From Verrucomicrobiaceae bacterium (GTDB lineage: Bacteria > Verrucomicrobiota > Verrucomicrobiia > Verrucomicrobiales > Akkermansiaceae), in contig JAIXPW010000139.1 in the NCBI GenBank assembly GCA_027485995.1, forward strand, positions 1-64,000: a stretch of DNA of 64,000 nt, read 5' to 3'. Both the position numbers and the translations under genes were made by a program. Shown piece after piece: positions 2,611 to 19,485 of the stretch (positions are counted from its first letter, which is position 1; each line of letters starts with the position of its first letter). Below the pieces are notes generated by a model, which ran no database searches, was not told the DNA's origin, and was given only the letters and a program-made list of their open reading frames with translations.

Positions 2611-5600
2611 ATGAGCAAGCGAATTTTGCAACACCCCGAAGTGCCAGCAGGAGAAACCACGGTTTCCTGGCGCACCGTGGGTCAACTCGAGGACACCCCG
2701 AGCTTCCGCGCCTGGCTGACCCGCGAATTTCCGCGCGGTGCCGCCGAGATGTCCGGAGACGAGGACATGGAAACCTCGCGTCGCTCCTTCCTGAAACTGA
2801 TGGGAGCGTCCACCGCGCTGGCGGGATTCGGCATGGCGGCCTGCCGCCGCCCGGAGACCTACATCGTTCCCTATGCCAAGGCACCCGAGTGGGTCATTCC
2901 AGGAAAGGCACTCTACTATGCCTCCGCCATGCCACGTTCCGGTGGCGCGACGCCCCTGGTGGTGACGACCTTCGAAGGCCGCCCCACCAAAGTGGCTCCG
3001 AACACCCTTCACCCCGATGGTTCAGGGACCGACGCCTTTGCCCAGGCATCCGTTCTCGACCTCTACTCGCCGTCCCGTTCACGGACCGTTCTCAGGGGTG
3101 GACAAAAGGCCAACCGGGCTGATCTCGATGCCGTGATCGCGACGCTGGCGAAGGACAAGGCCGCCAAGATCGGCTTTGTGTTTGGCGCGGATGATTCGCC
3201 GACCCGCAACCGTCTCTCCAAGGAGCTCGCCTCCAAGTTCTCAGCCGCGAAGTTCTACCAATACGAAGCCCTCACCGGTGAGTCGGCGGCGGCTCTTGGT
3301 GACGGGATTTCCCTGGTGCCGGACTTCGAGAAGGCCGATGTGGTGGTCTCCCTGGATTGCGATTTCGTGGGCGTCGATGCCTCCTTCCCGATCGCCGCGT
3401 TTTCCCAGCGCCGCAAGCCGGAAGGCAACGACTACAAGGGCAAGCCGGACACGAGCCGGATGAACCGACTTTACGCGATCGAAGGAACCTACTCACTGAC
3501 CGGCGGCATGGCGGATCACCGTCTGCGCGTCGCTCCCAGCCAGGTGGCGGCATTCGCTGCCCAGCTCGCCAGCGCTCTGGGTGCCGGTGGCAATGCCGCC
3601 TCGGTTGCCGCAGGGAAGGAATTCAACTGGATCATGGCCTTGGCCGACGACCTCAAGAAGGCCGCTGGCAAGTCGGCCGTTCTGGTTGGACCGCGCCAGC
3701 CTGCCGCTGTGCACCAGCTCGCTCTCGCGATCAACACCACGCTCGGAAATCTTGGAAAATCGGTCCACGCTTATCAGACCGGCAACACGGGTCTGGGCAC
3801 GCTGGCATCCCTCAAGAAGGATCTCGATGGCGGCAGCGTCGATACCGTGATTTTCCTGACGCCCTCAAACCCGGTGTTCGATGCTCCTGCAGATCTCGAG
3901 TTCGCCACTTCACTTTCTAAGGCGAAGCTCTCGATCCACCTCGGTGCACGCACCGACGCCACCGCCCACGCGGCCACCTGGCACATTCCGGCGGCACACT
4001 ACCTCGAGCAGTGGTCGGATGCCCGCAGTTCCAACGGCGTTTACACGGTGGTCCAGCCGATGATCCTCCCACTCTACCCGGACTGCGTGTCCGAGCTGGA
4101 GCTTCTTCTTGCGCTGCTCTCCGAGGATGGGAAACTTCTCAATGGGGAAGGGGACAAAGGCGCGGCCTCTCCTGCCTACGGTGCGGTTCGTAAGACCTTC
4201 GAAGGCATCGCGGACGCCACGGACACCGCCTGGAAGAAGCTGCTGCGCGACGGATTTCTTGCGGGATCCACCTATGCCAAGGCAGCTCCTGCCGCCAAGG
4301 CTGCGACACTTTCCTCGGTTCCGGCTCCGACCGCCCAGTCGCTCGAAGTGGTGTTCGCCACCGATTCCTCGGTCTTCGACGGACGCTGGATCGACAACGG
4401 CTGGCTTCAGGAAGTGCCAGATCCGATCACCAAGCTGGCCTGGGACAACGCCGCGCTCATTTCCCCGAAGACCGCCAAGGAACTCGGACTCTACGAAGAG
4501 ATCATCGAACTTGAGCCCGTCAACCAGACGCTCAGCAAGATTACTGGCGATGAGGTGAAGAACGCACCGGTCCACCCGGACGGTGAAAGCGGCAACCGCC
4601 GCGCTCCGATCATCAAGGTGACTGTCAATGGCAAGACCGCCGAATTGCCCGTTCTCGTGGCCTTCGGTCAGGCCGAGAACGTCATTGTCCTGCCCGTCGG
4701 CTATGGCCAGGGCTACGACAAGGATGACGAGCTTGGGCGCGACACCTCCACCAGCAGCCACGTCGGTCGCGTCGGAGCGAATACCGGCGTCAATGTCTAT
4801 CCGCTTCGCACGTCCTCGACTCCGTATTTCGCCACTGGAGCCAAGGTGGAAAAGACCGACAAGAGATACTCGCTCGCCGTCGGTCAGGAACACGCCGCGA
4901 TGTATGGTCGTGCAATCGCCCGTGAGATTTCCACGATGTCGGGTGACAAGGGTGACTTTGACGCCCAGTTGAAGAACGTGAAGTTCCAGGGCAGCGACGC
5001 CCATGCGCCGCCGAACGTTTCGCTCTACAAGCAGGAGAACAAGCCCGGCGAACCACTCCTCAGCGACACGCTCCATCAGTGGGGCATGAGCATCGACCTT
5101 TCGTCGTGCTCCGGTTGCAACGCCTGCGTCATCGCCTGTCAGGCCGAAAACAACATCCCGATCGTTGGAAAGGAGCAGCTCGCCAAGGGCCGCGAGATGC
5201 ACTGGATCCGCATGGACCGCTACTTCGCGATCGACAAGGACAACGACTTCGACCCCGACAGCCCGGAACTCGTGCCGCAACCGGTCGCCTGTGTGCAGTG
5301 CGAAAGCGCTCCCTGCGAAACCGTTTGCCCCGTCAACGCCACGGTGCACACCGAGGACGGCCTCAACGCGATGGCTTACAACCGCTGCATCGGCACCCGC
5401 TACTGCGCGAACAACTGCCCCTACAAGGCCCGCCGTTTCAACTATTTCGACTACAACAAGCGCAACCCGCTCATCGCCCACAACCTCTACAAGGGTCCGT
5501 TCGGCGAGAAGCAGGTCGGAGAGGCCCCGCATCTCCAGCGCAACCCGAACGTCACTGTCCGCATGCGCGGAGTGATGGAAAAGTGCACCTACTGCGTGCA

Positions 5601-5967
5601 GCGCCTGAAGGATGCCAAGATCCGCCAGAAGCGCGGTCAGAAGCAGGAGGCTCTTGTCGCCGGCAAGGACTCGACCGAGATGACGGTCACCACCTCCACC
5701 CTCCGCATCCCTGCGGACTCGGTGAAGGTCGCCTGCCAGGAAGCCTGCCCGGCCAGCGCCATCAGCTTCGGCAACCTTCTTGATGCCGATTCGAAGCTGC
5801 GTCGCATCCGCAGTGAGAAAAACGAGCCAGTCCTGGATCGCAACTACGATCTCCTCCAATACATCGGCACCCGCCCGCGGACGAGCTACCTCGCCCGCGT
5901 CAAGAATCCCAATCCGAAGATGCCGGATGCTCCATTCATCGGCAAGGCCACGATCCACATGGCTTGA
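2611..5967 (+). CDS. actB: Alternative complex III subunit ActB, molybdopterin-like/iron-sulfur fusion
   Basis: An 1118-residue protein. An extended Tat signal has its twin arginine at residues 57-58 (SRRSFLKLMG) after a roughly 50-residue leader, as usual for ActB. The first two thirds resemble a molybdopterin oxidoreductase that, in this family, carries no molybdenum cofactor. The C-terminal third is a four-cluster ferredoxin-like domain with CSGCNACVIACQAENN, CVQCESAPCETVCPVNA, YCANNCPYKARRFNYFDY and CTYCVQRLKDAK...CQEACPASAI. It passes electrons from quinol, oxidised at ActC, to the ActA hemes on the periplasmic face. The ATG at 2611 starts the conserved leader (WRTVGQLEDTPSFRAWLTREF). 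Confidence 0.95.
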   Translation: MSKRILQHPEVPAGETTVSWRTVGQLEDTPSFRAWLTREFPRGAAEMSGDEDMETSRRSFLKLMGASTALAGFGMAACRRPETYIVPYAKAPEWVIPGKALYYASAMPRSGGATPLVVTTFEGRPTKVAPNTLHPDGSGTDAFAQASVLDLYSPSRSRTVLRGGQKANRADLDAVIATLAKDKAAKIGFVFGADDSPTRNRLSKELASKFSAAKFYQYEALTGESAAALGDGISLVPDFEKADVVVSLDCDFVGVDASFPIAAFSQRRKPEGNDYKGKPDTSRMNRLYAIEGTYSLTGGMADHRLRVAPSQVAAFAAQLASALGAGGNAASVAAGKEFNWIMALADDLKKAAGKSAVLVGPRQPAAVHQLALAINTTLGNLGKSVHAYQTGNTGLGTLASLKKDLDGGSVDTVIFLTPSNPVFDAPADLEFATSLSKAKLSIHLGARTDATAHAATWHIPAAHYLEQWSDARSSNGVYTVVQPMILPLYPDCVSELELLLALLSEDGKLLNGEGDKGAASPAYGAVRKTFEGIADATDTAWKKLLRDGFLAGSTYAKAAPAAKAATLSSVPAPTAQSLEVVFATDSSVFDGRWIDNGWLQEVPDPITKLAWDNAALISPKTAKELGLYEEIIELEPVNQTLSKITGDEVKNAPVHPDGESGNRRAPIIKVTVNGKTAELPVLVAFGQAENVIVLPVGYGQGYDKDDELGRDTSTSSHVGRVGANTGVNVYPLRTSSTPYFATGAKVEKTDKRYSLAVGQEHAAMYGRAIAREISTMSGDKGDFDAQLKNVKFQGSDAHAPPNVSLYKQENKPGEPLLSDTLHQWGMSIDLSSCSGCNACVIACQAENNIPIVGKEQLAKGREMHWIRMDRYFAIDKDNDFDPDSPELVPQPVACVQCESAPCETVCPVNATVHTEDGLNAMAYNRCIGTRYCANNCPYKARRFNYFDYNKRNPLIAHNLYKGPFGEKQVGEAPHLQRNPNVTVRMRGVMEKCTYCVQRLKDAKIRQKRGQKQEALVAGKDSTEMTVTTSTLRIPADSVKVACQEACPASAISFGNLLDADSKLRRIRSEKNEPVLDRNYDLLQYIGTRPRTSYLARVKNPNPKMPDAPFIGKATIHMA

Positions 5968-6118: not shown

Positions 6119-7597
6119 ATGGCCCACGCCACCACCACCGCCCCGGAGACCCACAAGGGACCGAAACTCCCGGTGCTCGAACGTGAGAAGTTGATTCTCA
6201 ACGGACGCTCGTATCACTGGATCACCGACCGGATCTGCGGTGTGCTTGAAAACAAGCAACCGGCGATCTGGTGGCTGCTCTTCATTCCCTCCGCCATCAT
6301 CGCCCTCATCGGCGTGGTCGGCGGCCTGACGATCCTGGTTTCCACCGGCGTCGGCGTCTGGGGTATGACCAACACGGTCTTCTGGGGCTGGGACATCACC
6401 AACTTCGTGTTCTGGATCGGCATCGGCCACGCCGGAACCCTGATCTCGGCCATTCTTTTCCTGACCCGACAAAACTGGCGAACGTCGATCAACCGAGCCG
6501 CCGAAGCCATGACGATCTTTGCGGTGATGTGCGCGGGCATTTTCCCGGCCTTCCACGTGGGTCGCGTCTGGTTCGCCTGGTTCCTCGCCCCGGTACCGAA
6601 CGCCAACGCCGTCTGGCAGAACTTCAAGTCGCCGCTGCTTTGGGACGTCTTCGCGGTTTCGACCTATTTCACGATCTCGTTGATCTTCTGGTATCTCGGC
6701 ATGGTTCCCGACCTTGCCACCATTCGCGACCGCTGCAAGCCCGGCCTCCGCAAGCTCCTTTACGGGATCTTCTCGATCGGCTGGCGCGGTGGCAACCGCC
6801 AGTGGAGCCACTATGAAATGGCCTATCTTCTTCTGGCCGCCCTTTCGACCCCGCTTGTGCTCTCGGTGCACTCCGTCGTGTCCTTCGACTTCGCCACTTC
6901 GGTTGTCCCAGGCTGGCACACCACGATCTTCCCCCCCTACTTCGTTGCAGGTGCCATCTTCGGTGGCTTCGCGATGGTGCTGACCATCATGATACCGGCC
7001 CGTTTCATCTACGGTCTCCAGGACATGATCACCATGAAGCACATCGACAACATGGCGAAGATCATCCTGCTTACGGGCACGATCGTTGGATACGCCTACC
7101 TGATGGAGCTTTTCGTGGCGTTCTACTCCGGCGCCCAGTATGAAGCCGCCGCCTTCAAGTATCGTCTCGTCGGTCCCTATTGGTGGGCCTACCTCGCGAT
7201 GATGTCCTGCAACGTGCTTTCCCCGCAGATCTTCTGGTTCAAGTGGGCGCGCGAGAATCTCTGGGTCGTCATGGGCGTCTGCATGTGCGTGAACATCGGC
7301 ATGTGGTTCGAGCGCTTCGTGATCATCGTCACCACCCTCGCCCGCATGTTCCTTCCGGGTGACTGGGCCTACTACAAGGCCAGTCCGGTGGAAATCATGC
7401 TTTTCGTCGGCACGATCGGAATGTTCCTTGCCCTGTTCCTTCTGTTCCTCCGCTTCCTGCCCTGCATCAACATCGCGGAAGTGAAGTGGACCCTTCCGGA
7501 GTCCGATCCGCACTTCGATGACATCCACGACCATCCGGATCACGGCGTGGTGAAGGAAGCCGCCTACCAGCAGGAACTCGCTCAGGCCAAGCACTGA
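6119..7597 (+). CDS. actC: Alternative complex III subunit ActC, NrfD/PsrC-like quinol-binding membrane subunit
   Basis: A 492-residue integral membrane protein with about ten transmembrane helices, of the NrfD/PsrC family. It contains the expected segments [20 protein letters not shown] and [19 protein letters not shown], the latter lying near the proposed quinone site. In ACIII it binds quinol at the periplasmic side and contacts ActB. The ATG at 6119 is followed by a charged cytoplasmic N-terminus. The C-terminal tail is acidic and His-rich ([10 protein letters not shown]). actD follows after 31 bp that contain CTGAAAA-type repeats. Confidence 0.95.
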
Positions 7598-7628: not shown

Positions 7629-8225
7629 GTGAGCACCACCCGCAAACGCGTTTACGGCTACCTGGCCGAGTTCAAGAGCGCCTCCTCCCTCTACAAGGCG
7701 GCGGAGAAGGTTCGCGACGCCGGCTTCAAGAAGTGGGATTGTTATTCCCCCTATCCAATCCACGGCCTCGACGGCGCGATGGGAATGAAGCGTTCGATCC
7801 TTCCGTGGTTCGTCTTCTTCGGTGGCATGACCGGCACCTTCACCGGCTTTTTCCTCGCCTCCGCCACCCAGACCAACGTCTGGAGCTGGGTTCCAGGCCT
7901 GGCCAAGGCGATCGAGACCTACCCGACGATCGTTCAGGCAAAGCCGACCAACATCTTCACCGTGCCGGCCTTCTTCCCGATCATGTTCGAGCTGACCATT
8001 CTCTTTTCCGGCTTCACGGTTCTCTTCGGACTTCTGGCCCTGATGAAGCTGCCGCGCCTCAACCATCCTCTCTTCGCCAGCAACCAGTTCCACCGCGCCA
8101 CCGACGATGGATTCTTCATCGCCGTCGAGGCCCGCGACGCAAAATTCAGCCCGGAGGCCACCCGCAGCTTCCTCGAAGGGATCGGCGGAACGAGCATCGA
8201 ACTCGTCGAGGAAGAGGATTCCTGA
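7629..8225 (+). CDS. actD: Alternative complex III subunit ActD (DUF3341)
   Basis: A 198-residue protein starting at GTG 7629. It begins with a small soluble ferredoxin-like domain (VYGYLAEFKSASSLYKAAEK, then WDCYSPYPIHGLD), followed by two transmembrane helices (about residues 60-82 and 115-140) and a C-terminal cytoplasmic segment ending in a Glu-rich tail. DUF3341 proteins are the ActD subunit of ACIII; ActD binds no cofactor and packs against ActC and ActF on the cytoplasmic side. Spacing to actE (46 bp) and gene order match known act operons. Confidence 0.93.
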   Translation: MSTTRKRVYGYLAEFKSASSLYKAAEKVRDAGFKKWDCYSPYPIHGLDGAMGMKRSILPWFVFFGGMTGTFTGFFLASATQTNVWSWVPGLAKAIETYPTIVQAKPTNIFTVPAFFPIMFELTILFSGFTVLFGLLALMKLPRLNHPLFASNQFHRATDDGFFIAVEARDAKFSPEATRSFLEGIGGTSIELVEEEDS

Positions 8226-8271: not shown

Positions 8272-8967
8272 ATGCGCTACTTCTTCCTCGCCTACGCGAT
8301 CATTGCGGTTCTTGTGGTCGGAATCTTCGGATTCCGCGGCCAGAAGTTCACGCAGCCTCCTCTCCGGATCTTTCCGGACATGAAGGAACAGGACAAGCTC
8401 AAGGCCCAGAAGAACGATCCGTTCTTCGCCGATGGGATCGGCTCCCGCAAGCCGGTGACCGAGACCCAGCCACGCGGCTTCAATGAGGAGGGCAAGACCA
8501 CCCTCGGCGGCATTCCGGAAGCCGAATTCGGCGGTGGCACCGGCTACTACTTCACCGGCCACGTCGGCGATTATTTCGGCAACGGCATGCCTGAGGAACT
8601 GGCTCTGACCGCCGAGAACGCACCGGCCCTGTTGCGTCGCGGCGAGGAACGCTATGGAATCTATTGCGCTCCCTGCCATGGCAGGTCGGGCAACGGAGCC
8701 GGCATCACCAGCCTGTATGGGGTTCCAGGCATCGCCAACCTCAATCTTCCAACCTTCAAGGCCGATTCCTATCCGAACGGCCGCCTCTTCGAGACCATTT
8801 CCAAAGGCAAGGGCAACATGAGCGGCTACGCCTACAACATTCCTGTTCGCGATCGCTGGGCGATCATCGCCTATGTCCGCGCACTTCAGGTCGCCAAGGA
8901 AGCCCCGTATGATGCCGTGAAAGCGGCCTTTGATGTGGGAATCAAAAACAAATCCAGCGCGCACTAA
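8272..8967 (+). CDS. actE: Alternative complex III subunit ActE, monoheme cytochrome c
   Basis: A 231-residue protein with an N-terminal hydrophobic anchor (residues 4-22, without a lipobox Cys), a linker, and one heme c motif CAPCH at residues 132-136. GKGNMSGY further on supplies a likely axial Met. ActE is the periplasmic monoheme cytochrome of ACIII that receives electrons from ActA and passes them to a soluble or oxidase-bound acceptor. The anchor replaces the lipidated Cys found in some other ActE proteins. It sits between actD and actF in the standard order. Confidence 0.92.
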   Translation: MRYFFLAYAIIAVLVVGIFGFRGQKFTQPPLRIFPDMKEQDKLKAQKNDPFFADGIGSRKPVTETQPRGFNEEGKTTLGGIPEAEFGGGTGYYFTGHVGDYFGNGMPEELALTAENAPALLRRGEERYGIYCAPCHGRSGNGAGITSLYGVPGIANLNLPTFKADSYPNGRLFETISKGKGNMSGYAYNIPVRDRWAIIAYVRALQVAKEAPYDAVKAAFDVGIKNKSSAH

Positions 8968-8985: not shown

Positions 8986-10296
8986 ATGGCTCACCACCAC
9001 GTCACCTCCGCCGACATTCCCGCCAACGGCGAGCACCTCGATCCCTCGAAAGTTTCGAGGGCCAAATCGCTTGCCCTCGGCGTGGCCGGACTCGGCTCCC
9101 TGATCAGCGTCTGGCTCCTGTTCTTTGGACCGGAGAAATACCAAGGCTGGTATTCCTACTCCTGGGTCTTCGCGCTCTTCTTCTTCTTCACCCTGGCGAT
9201 CGGAGGATGCTTCTGGACCCTGCTGCACAACGTCTCGAACTCCAGTTGGGGCACGTCAGTTCGCCGGATTTTCGAGAACCTTGGTTCGGTCTTCCCGTGG
9301 CTTTTCATCTTCGCCATTCCGCTTCTCTTCCCTGGAGTTCAGAAATACCTCTTCGAATGGATGAACATCCATCGCGAGGCCACAGGTGACATCCACAAGT
9401 ACCTTGAGGACCACAATCCGCTGCTGTCGCACAAGTTCTTCTACATGAACATCTTTTGGTGGTATGTCAGGTTCTTTGCATACTTCCTTTGCATGGGGCT
9501 TGTCATCAATCACCTCCGCAAGCTTTCCACAGGGCAGGACACCGATCCGAATCCGGGCACCCAGCGGCTCTTCAAGGCCCGCTCGCGCTCGACGGGAACG
9601 CTCATCATCTTTGCTTGCACCATCACTTTCGCCGGCTTCGACTGGTTGATGGGCCAGGACTACTCATGGTTCTCCACCATGTGGGGCGTCTATCTCTTCG
9701 CGGGTGCTGCCCTGAACTCGATGGCGGTGATTGTCCTGACCGCCGCGTGGTTGAAGAGCCAGGGCTACCTTAAGAATGTCGTCGGTCCCGAGCATTTCCA
9801 CATCATGGGCAAGCTGATGCTGGCCTTCACGATCTTCTGGGCCTACGTTTCCTTCTCCCAGTATTTCCTGATCTGGTATGCGGACATCACCGAGGAGACG
9901 AAGTACTTCCTCATCCGCAACACCGACGGCTGGAACACCGGCATGATCGCCCTGGTCTTCGGTCACTTCGTGATTCCTTTCGTCATCCTCCTCCAGGCCT
10001 GGCTGAAACGGAACCCCAAGACCCTCGCCATCATGGCGGTTTACACCCTGGTGATGCATGTGCTCGACCATTACCTGATCACCATCCCGGAGCGCGGCAT
10101 CTCACTTGGAAACATCAACCCAGCGGTCTTCGGGAAGATCACTCCTGCAATCGATGGTGCCTTCTGGGGCGACATCCTCGCCTTCGTGACCATCGGGGCT
10201 GGTTTCCTGTTCTTCTACCTTCGGGCTCTCGGCCAGCATGCGCTCTACCCGCACCGCGATCCCCGCATCCTCGAATCCGCCAACATTTCCAACTGA
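8986..10296 (+). CDS. actF: Alternative complex III subunit ActF, NrfD-like membrane subunit
   Basis: A 436-residue integral membrane protein with about ten transmembrane helices, the ActC paralogue in ACIII that packs in pseudo-symmetry with it. Recognisable segments are GCFWTLLHNVSNSSWGTSVR, FAGFDWLMGQDYSWFSTMWG and SQYFLIWYADITEET. It lacks its own redox cofactor and probably contributes to a proton path. Nineteen bases separate it from actE. With this gene the ACIII set A-F is complete; the next genes encode cytochromes and oxidase-like subunits. Confidence 0.93.
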   Translation: MAHHHVTSADIPANGEHLDPSKVSRAKSLALGVAGLGSLISVWLLFFGPEKYQGWYSYSWVFALFFFFTLAIGGCFWTLLHNVSNSSWGTSVRRIFENLGSVFPWLFIFAIPLLFPGVQKYLFEWMNIHREATGDIHKYLEDHNPLLSHKFFYMNIFWWYVRFFAYFLCMGLVINHLRKLSTGQDTDPNPGTQRLFKARSRSTGTLIIFACTITFAGFDWLMGQDYSWFSTMWGVYLFAGAALNSMAVIVLTAAWLKSQGYLKNVVGPEHFHIMGKLMLAFTIFWAYVSFSQYFLIWYADITEETKYFLIRNTDGWNTGMIALVFGHFVIPFVILLQAWLKRNPKTLAIMAVYTLVMHVLDHYLITIPERGISLGNINPAVFGKITPAIDGAFWGDILAFVTIGAGFLFFYLRALGQHALYPHRDPRILESANISN

Positions 10297-10332: not shown

Positions 10333-11112
10333 ATGTCCACCTCCCGCGACAATCCTCTGGCCCGCTTCTCCGCTTTCATCTGGGGAATCGGCAGCTTCCT
10401 CATCTTCACGGTGCTGCTTCTCATTTTCTGGGCGAACCGTGACCAGACCTCGACCCTCGAAGACGCCGCTGCCGCGAAGCGTTACGAGACCAAGACGAAG
10501 GTGGATGCCTCCCAGGACGCTGGCCTCGTTTACAAGGAGATCGAGCCAGGCAAGAAAGTTCAGGTTCCGCCGCATGACGTGTTTGAACTGGTCGGCAAGG
10601 AGCTCGCCTCCACCAAACCGGTGGCGGTCGAGAAGCCCGAGCAGGTGGTGCCTGGTTCCGCGACCGAGAAGAAATTGGCGGCAGCCCCGGCAGCGGATAC
10701 CTCCGCCATTGACAAGGCTCCGGCAGCGGATGTCCCGATCGATCCTGTGGTAATGGAAAAGGGCAAGGCGGCCTACCAGCTCTGCGGTGCCTGCCACAAC
10801 CAACAGGGCGAGGGACTTGTCGGACCTCCTCTCGCGGGCTCCGAATGGGTGACCGGTCCGGTTTCCAACCTGATCCTCATGCAACTTCGTGGCCTTCAGG
10901 GTGCCATCACTGTCAAGGGCAAGGAATACAACGTCCCCGGTGGCATGATGGCCATGGCCTACCAGGACGATGCCACGATTGCCGCCGTCTTGACCTACGT
11001 CCGCAACAGCTTCGGCAACAAGGCGTCCGCTGTGACTCCAGAGCAGGTTGCCGCCCTGCGCGGTGAAGTTGGCAAGCCTCAGGTCAACGCCGCTGAACTC
11101 AAGAAACCCTGA
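10333..11112 (+). CDS. Membrane-anchored monoheme cytochrome c
   Basis: A 259-residue protein: one N-terminal transmembrane helix (about 12-33), an Ala/Pro/Lys-rich flexible linker (about 90-135), and a C-terminal class I cytochrome c domain with CGACH at residues 151-155 and a Met-rich segment (GGMMAMAY) for the sixth ligand. It lies 36 bp after actF and 27 bp before the CcoN-like gene. Its architecture recalls one half of CcoP, so it may move electrons between ActE and the downstream modules. A related anchored cytochrome follows at 13428, so the CcoN/CcoO-like pair is bracketed by two such proteins. Confidence 0.85.
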   Translation: MSTSRDNPLARFSAFIWGIGSFLIFTVLLLIFWANRDQTSTLEDAAAAKRYETKTKVDASQDAGLVYKEIEPGKKVQVPPHDVFELVGKELASTKPVAVEKPEQVVPGSATEKKLAAAPAADTSAIDKAPAADVPIDPVVMEKGKAAYQLCGACHNQQGEGLVGPPLAGSEWVTGPVSNLILMQLRGLQGAITVKGKEYNVPGGMMAMAYQDDATIAAVLTYVRNSFGNKASAVTPEQVAALRGEVGKPQVNAAELKKP

Positions 11113-11139
11113 CGCGTTTCCTCCCGAACTCATTTCACG

Positions 11140-12645
11140 ATGTCCCAAGACACTTCCAACAGCCCGGAAAAGGACGCGATTGTGCGTGCCTCGATTGACC
11201 GCTCGCTGCGCCATCCGGTGATGTTCTTCTTCACCAGCGGTGCTGCCTGGCTCGCGGTTTCCATCGTGCTGGGAATCATTTCCTCGGCCAAGAACCATAG
11301 CCCCGACTTCCTGTCCGGCTGCCCCTGGTTGACCTATGGACGGGTGTTTCCCGCTCACATCAATGCGCTGATCTACGGGTGGGGTGCCCAGGCCGCGTTT
11401 GGAGCCATCATCTGGCTGATGTCCCGCCTTTCCCGCCAGGAATGCCGGGCCGCCGGAACCATCCTCACCTCAGGTCACGTTTGGAACCTTGGTGTTTCGC
11501 TTGGCATTCTGGGCATCCTTTCCGGTCACGGCACCGGCATGCCATGGATGGAGTTCCCCTTCTTCGCCTGGCCGGTCCTGCTGATCAGTTACACGGCCAT
11601 CGTGATCTGGTCGTTGGTGCAGTTCCGCGTGCGGCCCAGCGGCCATACTTATATCTCGCAGTGGTTCCTGGTGGCTTCGGTGATCTGGTTCCCATGGGTC
11701 TATCTCACGGCCAACGTGCTTCTCCATTGCATGACCGGACACCCGGTGATGGCCGCAGGCATCAACGCCTGGTTCAGGTCCGCCATCCTGCTGCTCTTCT
11801 TCCTTCCAGTAGGAATTGGCACCGCCTTCTACCTGGTGCCGAAAGTCACCGGCAAGCCGATCTACAGCTACACGCTCGCTCAAATCGGATTCTGGTCGCT
11901 GGCAATCATCGCGCCATGGGCCGGGATGCAGAAACTCACCGGAGCTCCCATTCCCTACTTCCTTCCCTACCTCGGGGCCGCCGCCACGGTTCTGATCGCC
12001 ATCCCGGCCTTCACCGTGGCCGCCAACCTGATCGCCACGGCCTTGAGTTCCGGTGAAACGGTGTCGCACAGCCCGACCCTCCGGTTCACCCTTGCGGGAC
12101 TGGTCTGCCTCGCCCTTTTCGGCGGAGCGGCGGTCTTCCTGAATCTTCCGAACAGCACGCTCCCGCTGACCCAGTTCAGTCTCTCAGGCTATGGTTTCGA
12201 CATCCTCGGTCTCTATGGCTTTTTCAGCCTGGTGATGTTTGGGGCGATTTACTTCATCGTGCCGCGCATCACCCGTCGCGAGTGGCTTTCCCGCCGCCTG
12301 ATCAAGATGCATTTCTTCCTTTCCGTTTACGGAGTGGTCACCGTGGCACTGGTTGCTCTCTTCGGCGGCCTCCAGCAGGGGATCGGCCAGGAGCAGTTCG
12401 ACCAGGGTTGGGACAACGCGGCCGCCCGCGCGACCCCCTATGCGATCGCAACAACTCTGGCCTGGTGTTTCATCCTGTTCTCCAACGTCTTCTTCTTCAT
12501 GCACCTGACCTTGATGTGGCTTCGTCTCGGTCGCCGGTCCTCCCATCCGACCCTCCTGGTGGACTCACATCACGGCAGTCCGCACGGACCGGAAGGGGAC
12601 ATCGACAACGCGGGTCCCGGAACCGCAGCCGCCTCCGCCCACTGA
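11140..12645 (+). CDS. CcoN-like (cbb3 oxidase subunit I family) protein lacking the catalytic ligands
   Basis: A 501-residue protein with about twelve helices, clearly homologous to CcoN. GRVFPAHINALIYGWG matches the first heme-b helix, YLVPKVTGKPIYSYTLAQIGFW matches the helix VI-VII link, and FGAIYFIVPRI follows the heme helix. His73, a low-spin heme ligand, is kept. The CuB histidines are gone: GHNA becomes RSA (Ser214), and WAGPHH becomes WAGMQK (Gln264, Lys265). The GHVH pair that binds the high-spin and low-spin hemes aligns with Phe353 and Ile355, and no His lies in that helix. It cannot be an ordinary oxygen reductase and may be a structural or quinone-binding module. Homology is secure; function is unknown. 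Confidence 0.85.
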   Translation: MSQDTSNSPEKDAIVRASIDRSLRHPVMFFFTSGAAWLAVSIVLGIISSAKNHSPDFLSGCPWLTYGRVFPAHINALIYGWGAQAAFGAIIWLMSRLSRQECRAAGTILTSGHVWNLGVSLGILGILSGHGTGMPWMEFPFFAWPVLLISYTAIVIWSLVQFRVRPSGHTYISQWFLVASVIWFPWVYLTANVLLHCMTGHPVMAAGINAWFRSAILLLFFLPVGIGTAFYLVPKVTGKPIYSYTLAQIGFWSLAIIAPWAGMQKLTGAPIPYFLPYLGAAATVLIAIPAFTVAANLIATALSSGETVSHSPTLRFTLAGLVCLALFGGAAVFLNLPNSTLPLTQFSLSGYGFDILGLYGFFSLVMFGAIYFIVPRITRREWLSRRLIKMHFFLSVYGVVTVALVALFGGLQQGIGQEQFDQGWDNAAARATPYAIATTLAWCFILFSNVFFFMHLTLMWLRLGRRSSHPTLLVDSHHGSPHGPEGDIDNAGPGTAAASAH

Positions 12646-12690
12646 TTTCCGTTTCGGATTCCACAACCTGAATTTCGAAATTTCCACTCC

Positions 12691-13398
12691 ATGAGCTTCC
12701 GCAATTTCCTTCTGGGCATCTTCGCCAGTTTCTCCCTCGCGTGGGGAATGGTGGTCGTTTACCCGTTCTTCAAGATGCGCGCCCTCAAGCCGATCGTCCT
12801 CACCGAGGCGAGCGACGGCAAGGATGGCCTTTATTTCCCGAAGCGTGCCGGGCGCGTGGCGAACGGGGCCGCAGTCTATGCCGCGAATGGCTGTTACCTC
12901 TGCCACACCCAGGTCATCCGTCCGACCTACGCGGGCAATGACCTGTATCGCGAGGATTGGGCCGGCCTGAAGGACAACGGCGAAGGCCTCGACACCCGTC
13001 GCGAGACGAATGCCTACGATTTCGAAGGTGAGAAATTCGCCCAGATCGGAGTCAGCCGCCTGGGCCCCGATCTTTCCAATCTTGGACGTCGGGTGGAGGC
13101 CATTTATGCCAAGGGCAGCAGCCCAGAAGCCTGGCTCTACAAGCATCTCTACAGCCCGCGTGGTCCGGTGGAACGTCGCAAGTCGGACTGCCCGGACTTC
13201 CGTTTCCTGTTCGAGGAGCGCGAGATCATGGGCAACCCCTCGTCCGATGCGCTGCCGTTCTCCGTGGCTGAGGGCAAGGAGATCGTGCCGAACTCCGATG
13301 CCAAGGCGCTCGTCTCCTACCTGCTGTCCCTGAAGAAGGACGATGCAGTCCCCGCAGCCTTGAATTTCGCGCCTGCTAAAAAGAAGGCCGACGGTTGA
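12691..13398 (+). CDS. CcoO-like monoheme cytochrome c (cbb3 subunit II family)
   Basis: A 235-residue protein with one N-terminal membrane anchor (about 5-28) and the CcoO heme signature GCYLCHTQVIRP (CxxCH at residues 68-72). LGPDLSNLGRR and WLYKHLYSPR are also family-typical. At the place where CcoO has its axial Met (a motif like ESxMPxYPWLF), this protein reads KSDCPDFRFLF, so Cys167 replaces the Met ligand. It lies 45 bp after the degenerate CcoN-like gene and presumably pairs with it. Either the heme is His/Cys-ligated or it uses another ligand; both would give an atypical potential. Confidence 0.85.
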   Translation: MSFRNFLLGIFASFSLAWGMVVVYPFFKMRALKPIVLTEASDGKDGLYFPKRAGRVANGAAVYAANGCYLCHTQVIRPTYAGNDLYREDWAGLKDNGEGLDTRRETNAYDFEGEKFAQIGVSRLGPDLSNLGRRVEAIYAKGSSPEAWLYKHLYSPRGPVERRKSDCPDFRFLFEEREIMGNPSSDALPFSVAEGKEIVPNSDAKALVSYLLSLKKDDAVPAALNFAPAKKKADG

Positions 13399-13427
13399 AA
13401 CTCTCCAACACGCTACTTTAGTCCGAC

Positions 13428-14198
13428 ATGTCCGACCCAATTCAGAAGCCCGATCTTGATGACTCGATCAATGTGACCGAGACACACGGTCGCATCGCCC
13501 GCCAGGCGGCGGCGGCGGCGCGTGAGAATAAGCTTGGAGAAAATGGCACTCAGCCGGTTTCCCTCTGGCTGTTCCTCGCCTTGGCCGTGGTGCTGATCAT
13601 CGCCGGTGGCGTCCTCGGCAGCGGTGGCAGCCTCTTCGCCTACGGAACCAGTTTCCGCGATGGCTATGTCCGCAAGCCGGCGCCGGGTGACGACGACAAA
13701 GGCCCACAGCCCAAGCCAGCTATCATTGCCTATTCCGCCAGGGGATCAAAAATCTACTCCGCCAAGTGCGGTGGTTGCCACGGTCCGGGTGGCCAAGGTG
13801 ACGGAGCCAACTATCCTTCGCTTGCAGGTTCGGCCTGGGTCAAGGGTGAGACCGAGCGCTTTGCGATGATCGTTCTGAACGGTCTGCAAGGCCCGACCAG
13901 CACGGGCAAGGCCTACGGCGCAGCCGGCATGCCGGCCCAGGGTGGCGGAATGAGTCCCGAGGATCTGGCGGGAGTCATGACCTTTCTTCGCAATGGCTTT
14001 GGAAACACGGTGGGCGACATCGTGACCGTGGACATGGCCAAGGCTGCGATGGAGATTTCCGGGAAACGTGCGAAGGCCGGCCAACAGGTCGATGCCGTCG
14101 AACTCGAAGCCGATCATAAGAAAAACCTTCCGGGCGATCCGCTCGATCCGAACACCCTTGTCGATCCGGTCACCCTCGCCCCGGCTGCGGCCAAGTAA
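13428..14198 (+). CDS. Membrane-anchored monoheme cytochrome c (CcoP-like position)
   Basis: A 256-residue protein with a charged N-terminus, one transmembrane helix (about 44-66), then a periplasmic class I cytochrome c domain with CGGCH at residues 114-118 followed by GPGGQGDGANYP, and a Met-containing loop (AAGMPAQGGGMS). The start (MSDPIQKPDLDDSINVTETHG) resembles CcoP proteins, but CcoP has two hemes and this has one. It lies between the CcoO-like gene and coxA, so it may hand electrons to the CuA site of the A-type oxidase. Confidence 0.85.
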   Translation: MSDPIQKPDLDDSINVTETHGRIARQAAAAARENKLGENGTQPVSLWLFLALAVVLIIAGGVLGSGGSLFAYGTSFRDGYVRKPAPGDDDKGPQPKPAIIAYSARGSKIYSAKCGGCHGPGGQGDGANYPSLAGSAWVKGETERFAMIVLNGLQGPTSTGKAYGAAGMPAQGGGMSPEDLAGVMTFLRNGFGNTVGDIVTVDMAKAAMEISGKRAKAGQQVDAVELEADHKKNLPGDPLDPNTLVDPVTLAPAAAK

Positions 14199-14225
14199 GG
14201 AACCACCAAACTTTTGCCACCTCGC

Positions 14226-16127
14226 ATGAGCGCTCACGCCCACACCGATCACGCCCACGACGATCATCATCACGATGATCACCACCACAATCCGGGCTTC
14301 ATCCAGAAGTATATCTTCTCGACCGATCACAAGATGATCGGTCTCCAATATGGCATCACCGCCGGTCTGTTCCTGCTCTTCGGGTTCTACCTGATGATGG
14401 TGATGCGCTGGAGCATCGCCTATCCGCACCAACCGCTGCCGGAGTGGATGAGCTTCGTGTTCACCGACACATGGAAGGCCCGTTGGCTTTCCGATGGCAA
14501 GGTGACTGGCGATACTTACAACATGTTCGGTGCGATGCATGGCACGATCATGGTGTTCCTCGGCATCGTTCCCCTTGGCTTCGGTGCCTTTGGAAACTAC
14601 GTGACTCCGCTTCAGATTGGCGCACCGGACATGGCGTTTCCGAAGCTGAACATGGCCAGCTACTGGCTCTATCTTCTCGGTGGCCTGGTGATGTGCGGAT
14701 CCTTCTTCATGGAGTCCGGTGCGGCCAAGTCCGGATGGACCAACTACTCTCCGCTGGCCGGCTTTGCTGATGGTCAAATCGTCAATCAATGGCTCGCCGG
14801 GCAGACCCAGTGGCTCATCGGTCTCGTGTTGCTGATTTCCTCCTCGCTGCTCGGCTCGGTCAACTTCATCACCACCATCATCAACCTCCGCGCCCGTGGC
14901 ATGACCTGGATGCGGATGCCATTCTTCGTCTGGGCGATGCTGGTGACCGGCTTCCTGCTGCTGCTTGCCTTCCCGCCTCTTGAGTCGGCCGGCATCATGC
15001 AGTTGATGGACCGCACGTTCCACTCCTCCTTCTTTATGCCCTCCGGCCTCTACACCAAGAGCGAGGGCTTGGCCGAGCTTTCCGGTGGTGGCTCGCCGCT
15101 CTTGTTCCAGCACCTTTTCTGGTTTCTCGGCCACCCGGAGGTGTATGTGCTCCTCCTGCCAGCCTTCGCCTGTGTCGCGGAAATCATTCCCTGCTACACC
15201 CGCAAGCCGCTTTGGGGTTACAAGTCGATGGTCTATGGGGTCCTCGTCCTTGGTTTCCTTTCCTTCATCGTCTGGGCTCACCACATGTATCTCACCGGCA
15301 TGGGTGCGAGTGTCTCGACCTGGTTCCAGACGACCACGGTGCTGATTTCGGTTCCATCCGTCATCCTGATCACTGCGATGTTGATTTCCCTCTGGGGCGG
15401 ATCGATCCGCTTCGAACCGGCGATGCTCTGGGCCTGTGCCTTCATCCCGATGTTCGGCATCGGTGGCCTTACCGGACTGCCGCTCGCCTTCAATCTGGCC
15501 GACCTTCACCTCCACGACACCTACTACGTGATCGGCCATTTCCACTACGTGGTGGCTCCGGGCATCCTCTTCGGGCTCTTCGCCGGAGTGTATCACTGGT
15601 ATCCGAAGATCACAGGTCGCTTCCTCAGCCGCACGCTGACCCATTTCCACTTCTGGCCCAGCCTGGTCTGCATGAATGTGATTTTCTTCCCGATGCTCAT
15701 CCAGGGTATGGCCGGTTTCCATCGCCGTTGGTACAATGGTGGCGATGCTTATCTCTCGAAGACGAAGGACAGCGTCAACGTCTTCGGCAACACTGTCGCC
15801 CAGCACATCGACCTGAACATCGTGATGTCGATGGGTGCCTGGACTCTTGCTCTCGCCCAGATTCCGTTCCTCGTGAACATCATCCTGTCCAAGTTCGCAG
15901 GCCGCAAGGTGCAGAGCGACAATCCTTGGAATGCCACGACGCTGGAGTGGGCGACTCCGACGCCTCCAGGACATGGAAACTTCACCTTCGAGCCGGCGAT
16001 CTATCGCGGTCCGTATGAGTACAGCCGTCCTGACCATGACGAGGATTTCCTTCCACAGTGGGTCGAGCCGAAGCGCCCTGAAACGGAGAAGGCGGACCAG
16101 CCTGCGAAAGCTCCTTCCCACCACTGA
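14226..16127 (+). CDS. coxA: A-type cytochrome c oxidase subunit I (CoxA) without the K-channel lysine
   Basis: A 633-residue, twelve-helix subunit. Ligands are intact: His105 (heme a), His303 with Tyr307 in GHPEVY (CuB and the cross-link), His352-His353 (CuB), and His438/His440 in GHFHY (hemes a3 and a). The D-channel is kept (GAPDMAFPKLN and Glu305). In helix VIII, where A-type oxidases read VPTGIK, this reads VPSVIL, so Leu381 replaces the K-channel lysine. The N-terminus is strikingly His/Asp-rich (about half His in the first 22 residues). I prefer ATG 14226 to a TTG four codons upstream. It reduces oxygen with electrons from CoxB. Confidence 0.95.
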   Translation: MSAHAHTDHAHDDHHHDDHHHNPGFIQKYIFSTDHKMIGLQYGITAGLFLLFGFYLMMVMRWSIAYPHQPLPEWMSFVFTDTWKARWLSDGKVTGDTYNMFGAMHGTIMVFLGIVPLGFGAFGNYVTPLQIGAPDMAFPKLNMASYWLYLLGGLVMCGSFFMESGAAKSGWTNYSPLAGFADGQIVNQWLAGQTQWLIGLVLLISSSLLGSVNFITTIINLRARGMTWMRMPFFVWAMLVTGFLLLLAFPPLESAGIMQLMDRTFHSSFFMPSGLYTKSEGLAELSGGGSPLLFQHLFWFLGHPEVYVLLLPAFACVAEIIPCYTRKPLWGYKSMVYGVLVLGFLSFIVWAHHMYLTGMGASVSTWFQTTTVLISVPSVILITAMLISLWGGSIRFEPAMLWACAFIPMFGIGGLTGLPLAFNLADLHLHDTYYVIGHFHYVVAPGILFGLFAGVYHWYPKITGRFLSRTLTHFHFWPSLVCMNVIFFPMLIQGMAGFHRRWYNGGDAYLSKTKDSVNVFGNTVAQHIDLNIVMSMGAWTLALAQIPFLVNIILSKFAGRKVQSDNPWNATTLEWATPTPPGHGNFTFEPAIYRGPYEYSRPDHDEDFLPQWVEPKRPETEKADQPAKAPSHH

Positions 16128-16168
16128 TTCACCGGAACACGGATAACGATTCAACGAACACAGGTTTC

Positions 16169-17794
16169 ATGGAAATTCCCTACGTCGTCACGCCCCGCAA
16201 GGACACCGGCCTCATCAACTCGAAGATCGCCATCTGGCTGTTCCTCGCGTCTGAAGTGATGCTCTTCGGTGGCTTCTTCTCCGCCTATGTCTTCCTCCGT
16301 GTCGATGCGGATTATCCCTGGCCCGAGCGTGCTCTTCCGGTCATCCCCGGTCTGGTCAACACCTTCGTGCTGATCGCCTCGTCGGTTACGGTGGTGTTCG
16401 CATGGGCTTCGCTCAAGCTGCGCAAGTGGAGACATTTCCAGGCCTACATGCTCTTCACCCTGCTCTGTGCCGCCACGTTCATGGTGCTCAAGGGGATCGA
16501 GTACAACGTGAAGTTCCACCACCAGGCTCTCCGCATGGCCGATGGTGCGATCATTGAAGGCCACCTCGGCTATGAACTCAAGGAGGGTGCCGACAAGCAT
16601 CATCCCAAGGAGGAGGACTACAAGACCGACCACAAGGGACACAAGATCGAGGAAAACAGGATTTACGTGGAAGCAACCTCGGTGACCTTCAACACGGTCC
16701 GCTTCCATAAGGATTGGGTCGAGGAGATCATCGCCGAGGCCAAGGAACACAACTCGAAGGTCTCGCTCGCGGCCGACCTCAAAGCGGTAACCAAACCAGG
16801 AGGCAAGGAGGAGACCCTCTTCCCTGCGGGCACTGAGCTGTCAGTCGAGGTGCTCAACAAGATCGCCGACCATCACCTTGAATCCCGTGAGAACAATTCG
16901 AACCTCCGGACAGACGATCTTCGCGCCGCCTGGAAGGCTGCAAAGAAAGAGAATCCCGGCAAGCGGGGCTGGGAGATCGCCGACAAGGTGGCGGTTGATT
17001 CCAGTCATTTCGCGGACCAGTTGATGACCGAAGTGCCCTCAGTGTCCTTCAAGGTTGATCCTCCAGCCAAGTTGGAATTCCTTCCGCGCGATGTGAAGGA
17101 AGGACCGACCCAGAGCCGCTTGCGTGACGAGACCGTGATCGATGGCAAGCTCCTTGAGAGTCCGATGGTGTTCCACTATGTTGACGCGCTCGACTTCCGT
17201 TACCTTGCCCAGAAGGCCATGGAGCCGGGTCGCAACCTCGATCCGATGAAGGAAATCGAGAAGTCCTGGCTCATCAACCACAATGCCGAAATCAAGGCCG
17301 CTTGGGAGTGGCACAAGGGTGAGATCGCCAAGCTCGAAGCCGAGCTGAAGAAGGAATCCCGCGAACCGACCTTCACCGAACGCTATCGCATCGAGTGGAA
17401 GGATTTTGTCGCCAAGGCCGAGGGCAAGACCCGTGAGGATCGTGACAAGGTGGTTCTGGCGAAGGAGCAGATCCTTGGGCCAGACTATGATGCGCGCGAG
17501 GAAATCCACGCCTTCCCCTCGCATGTGGAGATCCCTCGTGAAGAGGTCGCCTTTGCCTCCAAGTTCGCGCCTGCCTGGAATACCTACTACGCCATTTATT
17601 TCACGATGACCGGTCTTCACGGTCTTCACGTCATCGGCGGTGCGCTGGTCCTCGCCTACTACCTTTTCTTCGGAAAGAAGATGTATCTCAGCAATCCCGA
17701 GTGGCTGGCCAACCGCGTCGAAATCGGCGGCTTGTTCTGGCACTTCGTGGACCTTGTCTGGATCTTCCTGTTCCCGCTGCTCTACCTCATGTGA
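16169..17794 (+). CDS. coxC: Cytochrome c oxidase subunit III (CoxC) with a ~340-residue hydrophilic insertion
   Basis: A 541-residue protein; bacterial five-helix CoxC is usually about 200 residues. The family core is complete but split: three helices with WLFLASEVMLFGGFFSAYVF and LKGIEYNVKFHH end near residue 120. The last two helices start at residue 466 (TMTGLHGLHVIGGALVLAYY, then GLFWHFVDLVWIFLFPLLYL). Between them lies a soluble, Lys/Glu-rich, His-containing segment (about 121-460) with helical, possibly coiled-coil stretches. The loop of insertion faces the periplasm in known CoxC. No frameshift is visible, and codon use looks like the flanks. Confidence 0.93.
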   Translation: MEIPYVVTPRKDTGLINSKIAIWLFLASEVMLFGGFFSAYVFLRVDADYPWPERALPVIPGLVNTFVLIASSVTVVFAWASLKLRKWRHFQAYMLFTLLCAATFMVLKGIEYNVKFHHQALRMADGAIIEGHLGYELKEGADKHHPKEEDYKTDHKGHKIEENRIYVEATSVTFNTVRFHKDWVEEIIAEAKEHNSKVSLAADLKAVTKPGGKEETLFPAGTELSVEVLNKIADHHLESRENNSNLRTDDLRAAWKAAKKENPGKRGWEIADKVAVDSSHFADQLMTEVPSVSFKVDPPAKLEFLPRDVKEGPTQSRLRDETVIDGKLLESPMVFHYVDALDFRYLAQKAMEPGRNLDPMKEIEKSWLINHNAEIKAAWEWHKGEIAKLEAELKKESREPTFTERYRIEWKDFVAKAEGKTREDRDKVVLAKEQILGPDYDAREEIHAFPSHVEIPREEVAFASKFAPAWNTYYAIYFTMTGLHGLHVIGGALVLAYYLFFGKKMYLSNPEWLANRVEIGGLFWHFVDLVWIFLFPLLYLM

Positions 17795-17834: not shown

Positions 17835-18200
17835 ATGGCTGATTCACCAGAAGCAATCAAGAAGTCCATCCGGACCTATCTCCTCGTCATGGGAGCGCTC
17901 TTTGTGGGCACTGTCGTCACCTACCTGGTCGCCACCTTGCCGGCTCTCGATTTCGGGGGACATGGGTTTGATGCCGCCGACTGCGTCATTGGTCTCCTGA
18001 TCGCGACGGTCAAGGCGACCCTGGTCGCGGCGATCTTCATGCACCTCAATCATGAGAAGAAGTCGATTTACTGGATCTTCTTCGGGAGCTTCATCTTCGT
18101 GGCTGCTCTCGGGGGGCTGCTCGCGCTCGCTTACGTGAGTCCGATCCACGACAAGTTCTTTCCGCAGGGCAAGCCCGCACACTACGGCGACAAGGAGTGA
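17835..18200 (+). CDS. coxD: Cytochrome c oxidase subunit IV-type membrane protein
   Basis: A 121-residue protein with three transmembrane helices and the family segment KATLVAAIFMHLNHEKK typical of prokaryotic subunit IV (CtaF/CoxD-like). Such subunits stabilise the oxidase core and bind no cofactor. I take ATG 17835, 40 bp after coxC, because the frame upstream overlaps the coxC end and encodes no conserved sequence. The C-terminus is short and charged (GKPAHYGDKE). Confidence 0.85.
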   Translation: MADSPEAIKKSIRTYLLVMGALFVGTVVTYLVATLPALDFGGHGFDAADCVIGLLIATVKATLVAAIFMHLNHEKKSIYWIFFGSFIFVAALGGLLALAYVSPIHDKFFPQGKPAHYGDKE

Positions 18201-18717: not shown

Positions 18718-19485
18718 ATGAGCCCCTCAAAACTTCTCGGCATCCCAGAAAATTTCTCCGCCCATGGTGGGGATGTGGACCATTTGATCGACGTGGTCCA
18801 CTGGTTCATGTTCGCGCTTTTCATCGGCTGGACCCTCTTCTTCCTGGTCTGCCTTTTCCGCTTCTGGCACCGCCGGAATCCGAAGGCGTCCTACCAAGGA
18901 GTGAAGAATCATTTCTCATCCCATGTCGAGATCGCCGTGGTGATCATCGAGGCGGTTCTGCTTCTCGGATTTGCCTTCCCGCTCTGGGCGGACCGGGTCG
19001 ATAGCTGGAACGAAGTCCAGAAGATGAATCCGCTGCGTGTGCGGGTGGTCGGCTGGCAGTTTGGCTGGACCTACCACTACGCCGGTGCCGACGGAAAGTT
19101 TGGCCGCATCGAGCCCAAACTCATTTCAGGGAGCAACGAACTCGGGATCGATTACGAGGATCCGAACGCACTCGACGACTTCACCAGTCCGATCCTGAAG
19201 CTTCCTCTCAAGCAGCCGGTGGTGCTCAACATCACCACCAAGGATGTGATCCACAATTACTCACTCATCCCGATGCGGATCCAGCAGGATGCGATCCCGG
19301 GCAAGGAAATCCCGATGTGGTTCACTCCGGTCAAGAAGCTTGAGACCTTCGTGGTTTGCGGTCAGCTCTGTGGCGAAGGCCACGGCAACATGGTCGGCAG
19401 CATGGAAGTGGTGGATGAGAAGGAATTCCAGACTTGGTTCAGTGGCCAGAGCGACAGCAACCTCAAGGCGCATCAGAAGAAGTGA
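18718..19485 (+). CDS. coxB: Cytochrome c oxidase subunit II (CoxB), CuA protein
   Basis: A 255-residue protein with two transmembrane helices (about 25-50 and 69-92) and a periplasmic cupredoxin domain. VVGWQFGWTYHYAG is the aromatic entry patch, DVIHNYSL carries the first CuA His, and CGQLCGEGHGNM (Cys214, Cys218, His222, Met225) is the CuA loop. The Glu usually found between the two Cys is Gln216, whose backbone can still ligate copper. No heme c domain is fused. It is the last oxidase gene, an unusual position because coxB normally precedes coxA. Confidence 0.94.
   Translation: MSPSKLLGIPENFSAHGGDVDHLIDVVHWFMFALFIGWTLFFLVCLFRFWHRRNPKASYQGVKNHFSSHVEIAVVIIEAVLLLGFAFPLWADRVDSWNEVQKMNPLRVRVVGWQFGWTYHYAGADGKFGRIEPKLISGSNELGIDYEDPNALDDFTSPILKLPLKQPVVLNITTKDVIHNYSLIPMRIQQDAIPGKEIPMWFTPVKKLETFVVCGQLCGEGHGNMVGSMEVVDEKEFQTWFSGQSDSNLKAHQKK

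Follow-up and report, generated by a model that had tools for sequence, protein, structure and literature searches.

Between the genes for an ACIII and those for an A-type oxidase, the genome of a Verrucomicrobiaceae bacterium (GCA_027485995.1, contig JAIXPW010000139.1) encodes a protein related to CcoN that has lost most of the residues expected to hold the hemes and the copper of an oxygen reductase. What is a protein of this kind, and why would it be maintained next to ACIII? We addressed this question starting from the first 64,000 nucleotides of the contig (hereafter, the window) and extending the comparison to other genomes of the phylum.

Gene Organization of the Locus

The genes around the CcoN-like ORF lie on one strand and are tightly spaced, beginning with a complete ACIII cluster (ActABCDEF, in this order). 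Their assignments, with the evidence in brackets, are listed here.

1875–2576, + strand: ActA, multiheme cytochrome c of ACIII (several CxxCH; synteny; tblastn across loci)
2611–5967, + strand: ActB, Mo-oxidoreductase-like/FeS subunit of ACIII (sequence, synteny)
6119–7597, + strand: ActC, NrfD-like membrane subunit of ACIII (NCBIfam and ActC genome searches, synteny)
7629–8225, + strand: ActD (synteny)
8272–8967, + strand: ActE, monoheme cytochrome c (Pfam Cytochrome_CBB3, synteny)
8986–10296, + strand: ActF, ACIII membrane subunit (synteny; no Pfam match)
10333–11112, + strand: extra monoheme cytochrome c (Pfam Cytochrom_C)
11140–12645, + strand: ligand-less CcoN-like protein, 501 aa (phmmer, Pfam, alignments with 3mk7, AlphaFold2, structure search)
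12691–13398, + strand: CcoO homologue (FixO) with one heme c motif, CYLCH (Pfam FixO, 37.7 bits against a cut-off of 29.6; NCBIfam ccoO, E = 1e-9)
13428–14198, + strand: CcoP-like monoheme cytochrome c (Pfam Cytochrom_C, 53.9 bits; NCBIfam ccoP, E = 3e-8)
14226–16127, + strand: CoxA, A-type oxidase subunit I (Pfam COX1, 434 bits; ligand motifs GHPEVY, HHMY and GHFHYV present in the sequence)
16169–17794, + strand: CoxC with a large internal insert (Pfam)
17835–18200, + strand: CoxD, subunit IV (Pfam)
18718–19485, + strand: CoxB, with CuA motif CGQLCGEGHGNM (Pfam and sequence)

This gene order places the CcoN-like gene between ACIII and the A-type oxidase, as an initial annotation of the sequence had proposed. 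That annotation had not mentioned the genes immediately downstream: with a FixO-family CcoO homologue and a CcoP-like cytochrome directly following, the CcoN-like protein is accompanied by its customary partner. The same genome also has a second, canonical CcoN, encoded by a single open frame on another contig together with CcoO.

Two features of the locus vary among relatives. The window's CoxC is 541 aa long, its COX3 match being split by a soluble-looking insert of about 300 aa; it also appears long in three order-level relatives (L092–L094) and has a normal length in the methanotroph forms. A gene similar to the extra cytochrome c between ActF and the CcoN-like gene occurs in loci L113 and L119 and is absent from most of the class-level loci read.

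Fold and Ligand Sites of the CcoN-like Protein

The 501-codon frame contains zero internal stops. Its product matched the CcoN chains of 9g6b (phmmer, E = 1e-25) and 3mk7 (E = 2.5e-25), and its Pfam COX1 score was 142 bits against a cut-off of 34.8. The NCBIfam ccoN model (TIGR00780) was also hit with E = 4e-31, yet at 108 bits the curated threshold of 583 was not reached. Judged by its sequence, the protein is a distant CcoN, with a homology far beyond chance.

The AlphaFold2 model (77 sequences in the alignment) had a pLDDT of 91.1 and a pTM of 0.92. The closest solved structures were all CcoN (Foldseek, E = 5e-20), and a VIA superposition on 3mk7 gave Z = 44.9 and 2.1 Å over 445 residues, so that the predicted structure shows the CcoN fold with 12 transmembrane helices. 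A methanotroph member of the family (L122) is likewise predicted to fold as CcoN (pLDDT 86.8; structure search, E = 6e-14). Structure prediction and superposition on a cbb3 CcoN, the check recommended in the initial annotation, thus returned the expected fold; by alignment, its ligand sites are empty of histidine except for His73.

Residue equivalences were taken from alignments with 3mk7, whose numbering is used for reference residues; the functions given here are those that we take these residues to have in 3mk7. Only one low-spin heme b ligand, His60, is kept, as His73. The other low-spin ligand, His347, corresponds to Ile355, and the heme b3 ligand His345 to Phe353. Among the CuB ligands, His207 is replaced by Ser214 and the His257/His258 pair by Gln264/Lys265. 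The cross-linked active-site Tyr251 has become Ala258, and the K-channel residues Ser240 and Tyr317 have become Ala247 and Leu324. Measured against a C-type oxidase, the protein lacks all three CuB histidines, two of the three heme b3 and heme b histidines, and the tyrosine. Every replacement named in the initial annotation, as well as the sole survival of His73, was correct; the loss of the catalytic tyrosine, Ser240 and Tyr317 adds to that picture.

We rejected misalignment as the source of the missing histidines, because two MAFFT alignments with 3mk7, made with different sets of rows, agreed with phmmer and the helices were well anchored. An assembly error or single-strain accident was rejected on the evidence of 82 relatives and of independent genomes.

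Retention in Class Verrucomicrobiae

Scanning public genomes for relatives yielded 80 loci, all from Verrucomicrobiota according to their titles. Within the window's group, His73 was invariant (82/82) and the other sites were replaced, mostly by S-Q-K-F-I. A few relatives in this group carry a histidine at one CuB position (HQAHAYV and others); no complete ligand site was found among those aligned. The initial annotation had staked its case on the recurrence of the ligand-less form in related genomes, and there such forms turned out to be abundant; the survey of ACIII clusters that it had advised recovered many of them in Verrucomicrobiota.

We then considered 388 genomes of the phylum, in which the CcoN-like protein was sought along with a matching search for ActC. 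Outside the Akkermansia-like genus, the protein was present in 91 of the 93 class Verrucomicrobiae genomes with ActC (a count obtained from two lists). One exception is G370, where it was not found and ActC is close to a contig end. In the other, G008, from the methanotroph family, the cluster retains ActA–F, CoxC, CoxD and CoxB but has lost CcoN, CcoO, the cytochrome and CoxA, implying that ACIII does not strictly need the module. A single 123-aa ORF lies between ActF and CoxC in this genome (L185, 11129–14076).

The order ActF, CcoN-like protein, CcoO, cytochrome c was found in the loci read, and together with the co-retention just described it suggests that the CcoN-like protein is associated with ACIII. 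In locus L187, which belongs to a different class of the phylum, CoxB-CoxA-CoxC come after ACIII and CcoN is absent. CoxA comes next after the module in the window as well as in its order-level relatives and in methanotrophs; it is not adjacent to many other ligand-less copies, and in several genomes read conservation extends no further than the cytochrome c.

A Graded Series and Recurrent Loss

When seven positions (six histidines and the tyrosine) were scored in 92 genomes of the class, a graded series emerged. All seven residues were present in 28 forms; two forms kept both low-spin heme b histidines with the binuclear site lost; 22 kept only the equivalent of His60; and the remaining 40 had neither the complete heme b pair nor the His60 equivalent. 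The two forms with the heme b pair (L095, 8688–10172, and L135, 1270–2754) have lost the CuB and heme b3 ligands and, from their sequences, possibly represent an oxidase fold holding one b heme only.

The intact forms, too, are encoded between ActF and CcoO. G001 has no COX1-family protein other than its intact form, which there is presumably the working oxidase. Conversely, every ligand-less genome tested encoded at least one other COX1-family protein (heme-copper oxidase).

A tree of the CcoN-like proteins, from which the ligand columns had been left out, requires at least three changes of label (intact or ligand-less), all of them forced by well-supported branches. In the ActC tree the label changes eight times, at least five of them forced by well-supported branches. 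The number of changes may be understated by the CcoN tree, in which rapidly evolving ligand-less rows are liable to group together, and a few rows of the ActC tree are very long; since both trees contain long rows, we limit the claim to at least three changes of state, although five or more losses are likely. The clearest recent loss is that of L105, which in both trees falls within a set of intact relatives. A single loss is not supported by either tree. Nor is a loss tied to an adjacent CoxA, since CoxA adjoins the intact gene of L097 and is lacking at many ligand-less loci.

The Methanotroph Form

The genomes of one family of the class carry pmoA-type genes (5/5), a gene content that points to Methylacidiphilaceae. 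At the seven positions these genomes' CcoN-like proteins carry SESSHFV or ADAAHQT, so that of the six histidines only the third CuB one is kept, and a profile search of these genomes found no other CcoN above the family cut-off. The gene beside ACIII in verrucomicrobial methanotrophs has been described as a cbb3-type oxidase (PMC6688271, PMC8498564), as has its counterpart in Opitutaceae (PMC8498564), and the methanotroph enzyme has been linked to high oxygen affinity (PMC6688271). We matched the published oxidase to our family by its position beside ACIII rather than by locus tag; it was presented as working, whereas the forms that we read are without nearly all ligands. Such sequences would not allow an oxygen reductase of a known kind, in which case the A-type and other oxidases of these genomes must do the work.

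In one of these loci (L123), NosZ, NosD and NosL are inserted between ActF and the CcoN-like gene (10982–17546); Methylacidiphilum caldifontis IT6 is reported to have the same insertion (PMC11102522).

A Fused Form in Akkermansia-like Genomes

A genus of the window's own family, with genomes of 2.2–3.5 Mb, is presumably Akkermansia. No COX1-family protein was found in 7/7 of its genomes, and a cytochrome bd has been predicted as the terminal oxidase of the ancestor of Akkermansia (PMC10540074). At one locus (L186, 8935–15050), ActC, ActD, ActE and ActF occur without ActA or ActB beside them, a reduced ACIII in a genome without any heme-copper oxidase.

ActF is followed at this locus by one protein of 836 aa, having an N-terminal membrane part, C-terminal CcoO and cytochrome c parts, and two heme c motifs. 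A long homologue was found in six further genomes of the genus. The N-terminal part matched the profile of the CcoN-like family with 94.8% probability and E = 1e-8 (59.6% when a single sequence was used), and its landmark GRLMFAF..LVYGWA aligns with GRVFPAHINALIYGWG, the histidine being absent. The CcoN-CcoO-cytochrome c module is thus kept, even fused, where no heme-copper oxidase remains. Considering also the several other genomes in which conservation stops at the cytochrome c, the A-type oxidase, which the initial annotation had made part of the context, is indeed a neighbor in the window and not an essential one.

The Cytochrome Partners

An ORF with a c-heme motif lies within 400 bases downstream of the CcoN-like gene at 143/145 ligand-less and 27/28 intact loci, and the heme c motifs of CcoO and of the cytochrome are retained. 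The CcoO motif has the form CxYCH at 28/28 intact loci versus 6 of the 141 readable ligand-less ones, a contrast that, because the rows are related, is a hint of co-change and not a statistic. On this reading of the motifs, CcoO would still carry its heme, even though ligands are now missing for the b hemes to which its electrons would pass.

A Proposed Role and Its Alternatives

What has been kept is the CcoN body together with two c-type cytochromes, and we therefore propose that the body anchors these cytochromes to ACIII, where they would serve as an outlet for electrons. In this scheme, the catalytic subunit of a C-type (cbb3-like) oxygen reductase would have joined the ACIII cluster in the ancestor of class Verrucomicrobiae, and its catalysis would have become dispensable wherever another oxidase took over. 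The window's lineage and several others would then have independently lost CuB, heme b3, the cross-linked tyrosine, the proton channel and, usually, the low-spin heme b too, keeping the 12-helix body as a cofactor-free membrane platform for CcoO and the CcoP-like cytochrome. Quinol electrons might leave ACIII via the c hemes of these two proteins to a separate acceptor. In the window's genome the natural candidate would be the adjoining A-type oxidase, entered through the CuA of CoxB; where CoxA is missing beside ligand-less copies, as in many cases, the acceptor must differ or be encoded elsewhere. We assign a probability of about 0.68 to this account as a whole, in which a former C-type catalytic subunit now acts as a non-catalytic scaffold for the cytochromes of ACIII. 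Some findings count against it: CoxA is missing beside many ligand-less copies, G008 has ActA–F without the module, and the invariance of His73 in the window's group could mean that something is still held.

That invariance (82/82) is also an argument for a different redox role, in which a single b heme, bound by His73 and a non-canonical ligand, or else a quinone, would provide the ACIII assembly with a site for electrons or quinol. The two forms that keep exactly the heme b pair show that a stage with ligands for heme b only exists. However, 40 of the 64 ligand-less forms have also lost the His73 equivalent with no change in gene context, so a single heme or quinone cannot be the general explanation, and no conserved histidine or methionine was seen in place of Ile355 among the aligned relatives; we regard this role as unlikely. 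A proton conduit for ACIII or the A-type oxidase appears quite improbable. Oxidase folds do contain proton channels, and the equivalents of Tyr223/Tyr224 are mostly kept, but the window protein, like most ligand-less forms, has other residues in place of Ser240, Tyr251 and Tyr317 of the C-type K-channel, and the conserved positions show no obvious acidic path. Of the roles that the initial annotation had offered for an oxidase fold repurposed to serve ACIII (docking, quinone binding, proton path), docking or scaffolding fits best; repurposing in an ACIII context is borne out, and, given these losses, the known C-type K-channel is unlikely to provide a proton path.

The protein might instead be an assembly or stability factor for the neighboring A-type oxidase and no part of ACIII, as the position of CoxA in the window, its order-level relatives and the methanotrophs could suggest. 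Very little speaks for this once the many ligand-less loci without an adjacent CoxA, and the module in Akkermansia-like genomes without any heme-copper oxidase, are considered. The reading with the least credit is that of a decaying oxidase pseudogene carried along in the operon. It is true that 50 positions invariant in intact forms, including the ligands, the tyrosine and the channel, have been freed in the ligand-less ones, and that the ligand-less branches are longer. Against this, the dN/dS of the gene was 0.03–0.13 in those close pairs that gave a value (among close relatives, similar to that of ActF and about twice that of CoxA), and we rejected a pseudogene on this evidence of selection. 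The frame is open, and 43 positions, mostly Gly, Pro, Trp and other structural residues, are conserved across both intact and ligand-less forms. Retention in 91/93 genomes after several independent losses, the confident fold, and fusion to CcoO and cytochrome c rather than discard in the Akkermansia-like genomes also speak against decay. The initial annotation's opinion that this is not simple decay therefore holds, on grounds of purifying selection, class-wide retention and a confidently predicted CcoN fold.

Relationship to Known Systems

Compared with the CcoN of the cbb3 oxidase (3mk7), the window protein has the same fold, length, 12 helices, place before ccoO and a ccoP-like gene, and His60 equivalent; unlike that protein, it is devoid of the residues for CuB, heme b3, the tyrosine, the second heme b and the K-channel, and its gene sits inside an ACIII cluster. 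CydB of cytochrome bd, NuoD/Nqo4 of complex I and ActB1 of ACIII are parts with a cofactor-bearing ancestry or likeness that have been kept as structural elements without the cofactor. Their folds are different and none is a heme-copper oxidase. Moreover, to our knowledge, those losses are old, whereas in the CcoN-like proteins loss recurs and intermediates survive.

We know of no ACIII structure that contains the module of CcoN-like protein, CcoO and cytochrome c, nor of any CcoN-like or CcoO subunit in the ACIII-caa3 supercomplex of Flavobacterium johnsoniae. That supercomplex (Sun et al. 2018, as cited in a passage of PMC8498564) is a parallel to the arrangement in the window, in that ACIII passes electrons to an A-type oxidase encoded beside it; for the window, the likeness is one of genes.

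Among open-licence papers we found no description of a ligand-less CcoN, of an ACIII-cbb3 complex in these organisms, or of a pseudo-oxidase. The initial annotation's remark that the protein was undescribed applies to the lack of ligands, but not to the gene beside ACIII, already described as a cbb3 oxidase (PMC6688271, PMC8498564).

It seems probable that, in class Verrucomicrobiae, the catalytic subunit of a heme-copper oxidase has repeatedly been made into a permanent, cofactor-free subunit of ACIII, up to the fused Akkermansia-like form, and that the 'cbb3 oxidase' of the methanotrophs is therefore not an oxidase. This would correct an annotation in which an oxidase and its oxygen affinity were inferred from a protein without the residues to hold the active-site metals. 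It also suggests that ACIII gained a module composed of the CcoN-like protein, CcoO and a cytochrome c. Finally, the natural series from intact through heme-b-only and ligand-less to fused forms has intermediates alive today, so that the conversion of a catalytic respiratory subunit into a structural one is open to direct testing.
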